NCBI GenBank assembly: GCA_018817515.1
Contig: JAHIUD010000004.1
Location: 1-64,000 of the forward strand
Reading direction: 5' to 3'
Source: Pseudomonadota bacterium
Lineage (GTDB): Bacteria > Desulfobacterota > Desulfovibrionia > Desulfovibrionales > Desulfovibrionaceae
DNA: 64,000 bases
The notes beneath the pieces are model-generated. The model worked only from the letters and a program-made list of their open reading frames with translations. It ran no database searches and was not told the DNA's origin. This document shows positions 58,595 through 61,140 of the stretch, piece by piece (the first letter of the stretch is position 1; each line of letters starts with the position of its first letter). The position numbers were made by a program, and so were the translations under genes.

Positions 58595-59320
58595 TCACTC
58601 GAAGCGGAAGTCCGTGCGGGTACCCTTGTACTCGCAGTAGTAGCAGCGCTCCGGCTTCATGAACAGGCGCACCAGGACCATGCCCGCCACAAAGCCACCC
58701 ACGTGCGCCCACCAGGCGATGCCCTGGACCGGTGCTCCCAGCTGCTCGAACAGTCCGGAGAACATCTGCGAGAGGAACCAGAAGCCCAGGAACAGCCAGG
58801 CGGGCAGGCGCACGATGTAGGGAATGATGATGATGGGGATGAAGGTCAGGACCTTTCCGCGCGGGTACAGGAGCACGTAGGCGCCCATGACCCCGGCCAC
58901 GGCACCGGAGGCCCCGATGATGGGCGCGGTGGCCGTGGTGTTGAAGAACAGGTGCAGGGCCAGGGCCGCCAGCCCGCAGAGCAGGTAGAAGCACACAAAC
59001 CGGCCCGGGCCCATGACGTCCTCGATGTTGTCGGCGAAGATCCAGAGCATCCACATGTTCATGATCAGGTGCCACCAGCCGCCGTGCAGGAACATGTAGG
59101 TGATGAACGGCAGGATGCCCGTGGCCGGAAAGCCCACGAAAGCTGCCCAGTCCGGGAAGAGGTAGCGCGCGGGCACCACCCCGAACAAATAGTAGAAATG
59201 CTCACGGGCCACCGGGTGCAGCTGGCTCAGGAACAGGTGCATGGCCACGTTGGCCAGGATGACGAGGATGACGGCATAGGGCGTGTGCACCCTGGGCGTG
59301 TCGTCCTTGAGCGGGATCAC
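58595..59320 (-). CDS. Rhomboid intramembrane serine protease
   Basis: Seven-helix intramembrane protease of 241 residues. The motifs are complete: HGGWWHLIMNMWMLW (oxyanion His and Asn), IGASGAVAGVMGAYV with the catalytic serine, and WAHVGGFVAG with the catalytic histidine. The cytosolic C-terminus carries a small cysteine motif, ERCYYCEYKGT. It starts at GTG 59320, which overlaps the stop of the RluD-CoaE gene as GTGA, so the two are coupled. Substrate unknown. Confidence 0.92.
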   Translation of the reverse strand: MIPLKDDTPRVHTPYAVILVILANVAMHLFLSQLHPVAREHFYYLFGVVPARYLFPDWAAFVGFPATGILPFITYMFLHGGWWHLIMNMWMLWIFADNIEDVMGPGRFVCFYLLCGLAALALHLFFNTTATAPIIGASGAVAGVMGAYVLLYPRGKVLTFIPIIIIPYIVRLPAWLFLGFWFLSQMFSGLFEQLGAPVQGIAWWAHVGGFVAGMVLVRLFMKPERCYYCEYKGTRTDFRFE

Positions 59321-61140
59321 GTCTCGTCTTCCTCCCAGTCGTACTCGTCCTCTTCGCTCTCTTCTCCGCTTTCATCCGCTGGCAGGGCCAGGGTCTCGCC
59401 CGCCACGGCGTTGAGCAACGCGTCCAGGCGCGACTGGAAGCGCGCGCGGCGTTCCCGGCGCAGCTCTTCCAAGGCGGCAAGCAGCTCGCTGGCGCGCCGG
59501 TCCAGGCCGTCTTGCCCGTCCACATCACCGTCATTGTCGACCACGAGGTCGCAGGCGGCGAGCTTGCGCTCGGCGGGCCACTGCCAGGAGTCGAAGGCCG
59601 CCAGCACCTCCGGGGCCAGGCCTCGGCTCTCGCGCATCTCGCCCTGGCGCTTGTCCTCCGGGCAGCGCACCCCGACCAGGACATCGGCCAGGACATCGGT
59701 CAGGACAGGGGCCAGGGCTTGGCCCTGGGCGTTTTTGCCGCCGTCAGCTTTGGCGCGCCAGCCAGCCTCAAGGAACAGCGGCACCTCGGCCACGGCCAGG
59801 GGCTCGTCCGCGTGGGCAGCCCAGAACTGCTTCAGCGCGTGCTCCACCAGCGGGTGGATGATGTCCTCAAGTTCGCGGCGCAAGGAGGGCTTGTCCAGCA
59901 GCAGGGCCAAGAGGCGCGGTCGGTCCACGCCGCCGTCGGTGTCCAGCAGGTCGCGGCCGAAACTGCGGGCGATGAGCGCCGCGCCGTCGCCGCCGGGGGC
60001 ATAAAGCTCGGCCACGCTGGCGTCGGCGCTGAAGACAGCCGGGGCGTTCGGCTGCCGGGCCAGGGCGCGCAGCAGGGCGGACTTGCCGCTGCCGGGCATG
60101 CCGGTGATGACCACGCGCTGGCAGTCGGACTCCAGCGCAGCCAGCAGGGCGAAGAAATCCGCTGGCGGGTCGCAGCGCAGGTCCAGCACCTGGCCGGTCT
60201 GCGGGTGGCGCAGCGCCAGCCGGAAGGCGTGGAGCATCTGCCGCGAGGCGAGCGCGGCCAGGGTTCCGCCCTGGGCCAGCCAGTTGGCGTGCTGGGCCGG
60301 GCCGTAGACCGGGTCGCCCACCAGGGCGTGGCCGATGTGCGCGAAGTGCACGCGGATCTGGTGCGTGCGGCCCGTGTGCAGGCGCACGGCCATGAGGCTG
60401 GCGCGGCCCAGGCGGTCTGTCCACAGCCTGCGCCAGCTGGTTCGCGCCTCGCGCCCGCCCTTGGGCAGCACGGCCATCTTGGTGCGGATGCTCGGGTGGC
60501 GGCCCATGGGCAGGTCGATGCGGCCCGTGTTAGGGTCGCCCGCCTCCTGGTCCACGATCTCGGACTTGGGGCGGCCATGCACGATGGCCAGATAGGTCTT
60601 GCTCACGCTGCGCGCGGCAAAGGCGGCGGAGAGCGCCAGGCGCACGCCCTCGTTCAGGGCCACGACGATGAGGCCCGTGGTGTCCTTGTCCAGGCGGTGC
60701 ACGATGCCCGGCCGCTCGCCCTCCATGCCCGAACGCTCCGGCAAGAGCTCCGGGAAATGGTGCAGCAGGCGGTTGACCAAGGTGCCGTCGGGCTGGCCGG
60801 GCGCGGGGTGCGTGGTCAGCCCGGCCGGTTTGTTGATGACCGCCAGGTCGGCGTCGCGGTAGAGGACGGCCAGGGGCGCATCCTCGGACCTCGGCGCGTT
60901 CTGGGAGGTCAGGGCCGGGGGGGCCAGGGCCAGCTTCTCCGCGCCTTCCAGGCGTTGGCCCGGCTTGCGGCAGACCTTGCCGCCGATTTGCGCGAACCCG
61001 GCCTGGATCCATTCCTTGACGCGCTCGCGGGATACGCCTTCGGCGACCATCTCGCGCGCCCAAAACTGGTCCAGGCGCGTGCCAGCGTCGTCCGGGGTGG
61101 CGGTGCGCTCGAAGCGTGTTGTTTCTGCGGTGTTTTGCAT
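59317..61140 (-). CDS. Fusion of RluD-type pseudouridine synthase and dephospho-CoA kinase
   Basis: A 607-residue two-enzyme protein. Residues about 15-70 are an S4-like RNA-binding domain and 90-330 a RluA/RluD pseudouridine synthase with the catalytic aspartate in GIVHRLDKDTTGL (Asp151) and LHTGRTHQIRVHFAH. From residue 342 a CoaE kinase follows, with Walker A ITGMPGSGKSALLRAL, FSADASVAELYAPGG and VAEVPLFLEAGW; it performs the last step of CoA synthesis. A short insert (about 460-485) and a very acidic tail (EESEEDEYDWEEDET) are unusual. The start is ATG 61140; the frame extends far upstream but antisense to the glycosyltransferase gene. No stop or frameshift separates the halves. Confidence 0.9.
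   Translation of the reverse strand: MQNTAETTRFERTATPDDAGTRLDQFWAREMVAEGVSRERVKEWIQAGFAQIGGKVCRKPGQRLEGAEKLALAPPALTSQNAPRSEDAPLAVLYRDADLAVINKPAGLTTHPAPGQPDGTLVNRLLHHFPELLPERSGMEGERPGIVHRLDKDTTGLIVVALNEGVRLALSAAFAARSVSKTYLAIVHGRPKSEIVDQEAGDPNTGRIDLPMGRHPSIRTKMAVLPKGGREARTSWRRLWTDRLGRASLMAVRLHTGRTHQIRVHFAHIGHALVGDPVYGPAQHANWLAQGGTLAALASRQMLHAFRLALRHPQTGQVLDLRCDPPADFFALLAALESDCQRVVITGMPGSGKSALLRALARQPNAPAVFSADASVAELYAPGGDGAALIARSFGRDLLDTDGGVDRPRLLALLLDKPSLRRELEDIIHPLVEHALKQFWAAHADEPLAVAEVPLFLEAGWRAKADGGKNAQGQALAPVLTDVLADVLVGVRCPEDKRQGEMRESRGLAPEVLAAFDSWQWPAERKLAACDLVVDNDGDVDGQDGLDRRASELLAALEELRRERRARFQSRLDALLNAVAGETLALPADESGEESEEDEYDWEEDET

Follow-up and report, generated by a model that had tools for sequence, protein, structure and literature searches.

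Fusion of an RluD-type pseudouridine synthase with dephospho-CoA kinase in Desulfovibrionales

Dephospho-CoA kinase (DPCK, or CoaE) catalyzes the last step of CoA synthesis. In the mammalian CoA synthase (PDB ID 2f6r, mouse), DPCK is part of a bifunctional chain, and its partner there is PPAT, the enzyme of the preceding step of the pathway. RluD of Escherichia coli (PDB IDs 2ist and 1qyu), the 23S rRNA pseudouridine(1911/1915/1917) synthase, has no CoaE partner. In mycobacteria, CoaE carries an additional UPF0157 domain, which is located at the C terminus, has been assigned a role in folding, and is not an RNA enzyme, as described in the accessible part of PMC2765170. A chain that combines a pseudouridine synthase with CoaE is not described in the papers found by a search of PMC full texts, and it is not mentioned in the accessible parts of PMC10102598 and PMC12570885.

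The window, which is the whole 64,000-nt stretch of DNA analyzed here, contains an rluD-coaE fusion gene (positions 59317..61140, minus strand, stop codon included) that encodes a 607-aa protein in a single frame. The gene starts with an ATG at position 61140, with an SD-like GAAGG immediately 5' of it, and ends with a stop codon at positions 59319-59317. The first-pass annotation had placed one uninterrupted 607-residue frame at these very coordinates, although it had left out the strand, and both the reading frame and the Pfam matches agree with it. Specifically, PF00849 matches residues 98-268 (107.6 bits; cut-off, 26.8) and the CoaE family PF01121 matches residues 343-464 (71.7 bits; cut-off, 27). 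The same annotation had seen two complete enzymes in this chain, and this holds in the Pfam and NCBIfam matches, in the sequence motifs, and in both folds of a structural model. The observation is thus confirmed as a genuine fusion of RluD-type and CoaE enzymes. Directly downstream, the fusion gene is adjoined by a gene for a rhomboid-family protease (PF01694; 58595..59320, minus strand, start uncertain), a conserved neighbor outside the fusion with a homologue at 12 of the 27 public-record loci (L096-L122) discussed below. On the other side, there are divergent genes for a GT2 glycosyltransferase and MnmA.

The RluD-type pseudouridine synthase half (residues 1-337; 60130..61140, minus strand) consists of an N-terminal S4-like region and a catalytic domain. 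Its catalytic Asp151 (60688..60690, minus strand) lies within HRLDK, matching the HRLD catalytic motif of RluA-family pseudouridine synthases. This Asp is invariant in an alignment of 22 sequences and is found in 46 of 46 fusions. The synthase half reaches the family score of TIGR00005 (RluA subfamily; 231 bits versus a cut-off of 192.7). The RluD equivalog NF008385 is the top-scoring equivalog, yet its 232.4 bits fall below the cut-off of 351; therefore, this half is named only RluD-type and its rRNA target is assigned by analogy, with 23S rRNA (helix 69) as the putative substrate. In phmmer searches against the PDB, the fusion protein retrieved RluD (1qyu; 6.6e-58), as well as the dephospho-CoA kinases 6n39 and 4i1u. 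The window's genome has four RluA-family matches, and the fusion is the best scorer among them.

The dephospho-CoA kinase half (residues 339-565; 59446..60126, minus strand; PF01121) carries the Walker A motif GMPGSGKS at residues 347-354 (60079..60102, minus strand). This motif and Asp151 are both located where the first-pass annotation had put them. The SAD-type Asp and the HP, AE.PL..E, and R...R (lid Arg) motifs are also present, and all of these are presumed to have the roles generally ascribed to them in CoaE. The SAD-type Asp is kept in 43 of the 46 fusions and is lost in L076, L080, and L084. An SWQWP motif is typical of the kinases of the fused clade, and an insert at approximately residues 461-486 is found in the window's genus. 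In three other fused kinases (L073, L078, and L086), long variable inserts are located between the HP and PL..E motifs. By the scores of curated families, the CoaE half is divergent: it is barely above the cut-off for TIGR00152 (65.7 versus 65.55 bits) and does not reach the one for PRK03333, a CoaE model of 395 positions (75.1 versus 215 bits, over the first 120 positions only). The Pfam match spans just the first two thirds of CoaE, whereas the structural model includes the entire kinase fold. Purifying selection acts on both halves, with dN/dS values in six within-genus pairs of 0.13-0.40 for the synthase half and 0.24-0.36 for the kinase half.

The AlphaFold2 model, built on 22 fused sequences, has a pLDDT of 86.4 and a pTM of 0.80. 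Foldseek and VIA-align place its residues 79..342 on RluD (11wx_B, Z score of 29.3; 1qyu, Z score of 28.3; 2ist also aligns) and residues 339..564 on 4i1u_B (Z score of 23.9, rmsd of 2.0, 202 of 202 residues), i.e., on the full kinase fold. The RluD part ends with a helix at residues 327-337, and the first CoaE strand occupies residues 341-347, which leaves hardly any linker between the halves. The chain ends in a C-terminal extension with an acidic, disordered tail (residues 566-607; 59320..59445, minus strand), where residues 590-607 have pLDDT values below 50. A strongly acidic tail had been recorded as part of the fusion protein. It is indeed there, and all 12 genus members compared have a net acidic tail (4 to 13); nearly all sequences outside the genus are non-acidic, with L018 as an exception. 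The tail is thus a trait of the genus rather than of the fusion, and its role as a general functional part of the fusion is rejected.

The fusion is more widespread than could have been known from the sequence of the window. A survey of its distribution, suggested in the first-pass annotation, found both halves covered, in one place or one frame, in 54 of the 59 relatives searched with the fusion protein, including G045, whose kinase half is decayed. The five exceptions (G006, G010, G011, G017, and G053) have completeness of 73-89%, and in G011, G017, and G053 the match meets a contig end within the gene. A scan of public genomes yielded 37 loci, 27 of which (L096-L122) match the fused family and ten of which are weak matches elsewhere. 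One frame contains both halves at 24 of the 27 loci; L118 and L120 start inside CoaE at the start of a contig. In the draft assembly of Salidesulfovibrio brasiliensis JCM 12178 (L102), the frame is broken within the RluD part, reflecting either an error or decay. The 27 loci include those from Desulfovibrio, Pseudodesulfovibrio, Halodesulfovibrio spirochaetisodalis, S. brasiliensis, Nitratidesulfovibrio liaohensis, Mailhella, Desulfonatronum, and a Desulfonatronaceae bacterium; L098 and L103 are labeled just “Proteobacteria” and L120 “Deltaproteobacteria,” with no order given for these three. Independent genomes that share the architecture show 36-89% identity. The fusion is also found, with visible motifs, in the small genomes G032 (0.9 Mb, 74% complete) and G020 (1.5 Mb, 100% complete). 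A CoaE match is present in 288 of 297 Desulfovibrionales genomes; of the nine genomes without one, three have completeness of 90% or more and contamination of 5% or less. Among the matches listed, 8 of the 288 genomes have two CoaE matches, and several of these cases probably represent a single insert-bearing kinase split in two.

Outside the order, 57 Desulfobacterota genomes were picked among the matches listed, 27 of them mostly because of a low score or a long frame and 30 as approximately one per family; the order loci L039, L042, and L055 are not part of the 57, and L064 and L065, which gave no blastp match, are counted as misses. No RluD-CoaE fusion was seen at the loci of these 57 genomes. 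In 17 of the 57, a separate coaE is preceded on its own strand by an rluD homologue, a fraction that is not a prevalence estimate because the genomes were hand-picked; “rluD” here denotes whichever gene matched the RluD half best by blastp, and it may be a different member of the RluA family. In 9 of the 17 pairs, the coaE ATG overlaps the end of rluD by 4-29 nt, and in L062 and L063 the TGA stop codon of rluD shares bases with the coaE ATG. In L157 the two lie within approximately 15 nt of each other, in L049 there is a 127-nt gap, and in L060, L134, L145, and L153 approximately 700-815 nt separate them; L046 and L162 have no candidate coaE ATG at the end of rluD. The two activities had been described as having no known connection. 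This view has to be modified, as rluD and coaE are recurrent and often overlapping neighbors in the same phylum; their connection is an old operon.

In a midpoint-rooted tree of 80 CoaE sequences, made by a quick method without L057, L059, L064, L065, and L088, the fused CoaEs, represented by 25 of the sequences available, all fall on one side of a branch with an SH-aLRT value of 99. The nearest to this clade are L060/L061, followed by L058/L062/L063, and all five have rluD upstream. The ancestor probably had a translationally coupled rluD-coaE pair with overlapping stop and start codons. Loss of the stop codon or a frame shift within the overlap would then have produced a single frame, in one joining event near the base of Desulfovibrionales, and the fusion would have been retained ever since, mainly as the carrier of the organism's only coaE. 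Thus, the fusion very probably represents a coupled rluD-coaE pair that was joined once at the base of the order into a bifunctional chain with two autonomous enzymes, one of which is the product of the sole coaE.

An assembly or frameshift artefact, which the first-pass annotation had named as a possible source of the long frame, has a negligible probability: dozens of independently assembled genomes, some of them in a single contig, have the same architecture, and this recurrence among the relatives and the public loci speaks against an error and leads to its rejection. The kinase half might also be a relic, with the true DPCK encoded elsewhere, and a second coaE was sought along the lines of the same annotation. 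In the window's genome, whose assembly is 95% complete, the only CoaE match is the fused domain, and the archaeal-type DPCK (PF04019) was not found; CoaBC is present. With this completeness, a missed second copy of coaE is possible but unlikely. Given also the intact motifs of the window's kinase, its dN/dS values, and its complete fold, the relic explanation is very improbable, and a redundant kinase half is rejected for the window. It fits one small lineage, family f3, where kinase motifs, including the SAD Asp, have disappeared from L076 (G080), L080 (G071), L084 (G045), and L180 (G053; truncated), all of which have kept the synthase Asp. Between L080 and L084, pN/pS is 0.71 in the kinase half versus 0.41 in the synthase half. 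Separate canonical CoaEs are found in G071 (L042) and G080 (L039); the GC content around the separate CoaE versus around the fusion is 0.583 versus 0.561 in G071 and 0.455 versus 0.453 in G080, but with contamination of 6-7% in these two genomes the separate CoaEs could be contaminants despite the matching GC. No other CoaE was found in G045 (94% complete) or G053, both of which have a decayed fused kinase. If the decay in f3 is genuine, the fused kinase matters only as long as no other is present, and the synthase is independent of the kinase.

Both activities of the fusion protein are predicted from its sequence. The substrates of the two enzymes are unrelated, so substrate channeling is presumably absent and the benefit of the fusion, if any, would be equal dosage. 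Most likely, each chain contains two independent enzymes, with equal dosage as the sole consequence, and the fusion has been retained mainly because the only coaE lies in it. It is unlikely that the halves are functionally coupled, with the kinase acting at the maturing 50S subunit as a tether or a sensor of CoA/ATP status, or with a ligand bound by the kinase tuning the synthase. Such coupling would be consistent with the retention of the fusion across the order and in genomes of 0.9 and 1.5 Mb, with the near absence of a linker in a confident model, and with the recurrent rluD-coaE neighborhood in the phylum; however, a neutral fusion kept in place by its essential half accounts for all these points equally well, and the synthase half persisted where the kinase decayed (L076, L080, and L084). 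To our knowledge, there is no ligand common to the synthase and the kinase. The fusion might even be a regulatory joint, with the kinase held close to the nascent large subunit by the docking of the synthase, such that ribosome maturation answers the supply of CoA precursor or ATP, or the reverse, and other members of the phylum approximate this by translationally coupling their overlapping rluD and coaE; this idea is quite doubtful. The link between CoA supply and ribosome maturation that the first-pass annotation had suggested is neither supported nor excluded, and nothing in the sequence shows coupling; a demonstrated coupling would connect CoA supply with the assembly of ribosomes. It is also distinctly improbable that the fusion gene additionally yields free CoaE, by internal initiation or proteolysis. 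Unfused relatives do start coaE at the position of the junction, but an ATG is found in the junction of 25 of the 46 fusions, at scattered positions, and just 3 of the 46 have a start after a 5/6 SD match. An internal start is rejected, as there is no conserved signal among the 46 fusions.

The joining of coupled neighbors is an ordinary event that here produced an unusual pair of partners, apparently undescribed in the literature searched. Two housekeeping enzymes are fused throughout the order, and their unfused relatives with overlapping genes persist in the phylum, which provides a clear record of the passage from an operon to one protein. In this order of sulfate reducers, the fusion also places an enzyme predicted to modify rRNA in one chain with an essential enzyme of CoA synthesis. 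With a synthase and an essential kinase in one gene, knockouts and annotations of “dephospho-CoA kinase” in these organisms may report on both functions. In PMC5193443, Dde_1447 of Desulfovibrio alaskensis carries the name “dephospho-CoA kinase,” and its mutant fitness is given as -4.71 (vegetative growth, 10 uM phosphate); the word “pseudouridine” is absent from the accessible text of that paper. If Dde_1447 is the fusion, this value may come from the missing synthase half.

A second type of CoaE fusion is found in other Desulfobacterota, where a DUF169 domain (PF02596) is N-terminal to a canonical CoaE at 7 of the 8 long-frame loci scanned (L038, L040, L041, L135, L139, L152, and L156). It comes from the same phylum and again has CoaE as the C-terminal partner, but the other domain is different and its CoaEs are outside the RluD-fused clade. 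At L036, a frame of 555 aa ends with CoaE, and its initial 340 residues have no Pfam or NCBIfam match; this is perhaps a third CoaE fusion or else a chance open frame. G516 and G471 likewise have long open frames (555 and 525 aa).

Compared with E. coli RluD, the synthase half shows approximately 40% identity and shares the fold, with structural alignments over 242-315 residues, and the HRLD motif; it differs in having a CoaE partner and in scoring below the RluD equivalog cut-off. The kinase half has the complete fold of CoaE (PDB IDs 4i1u and 1jjv) and the CoaE motifs named above but adds the N-terminal partner, the SWQWP motif, the genus-specific insert, and the acidic tail. Like the mycobacterial CoaE-UPF0157, the window protein combines CoaE with an extra domain, which in the window is N-terminal and an RNA enzyme by family assignment. 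As in the mammalian CoA synthase, DPCK is part of a bifunctional chain, but its partner in the window is unrelated to CoA.
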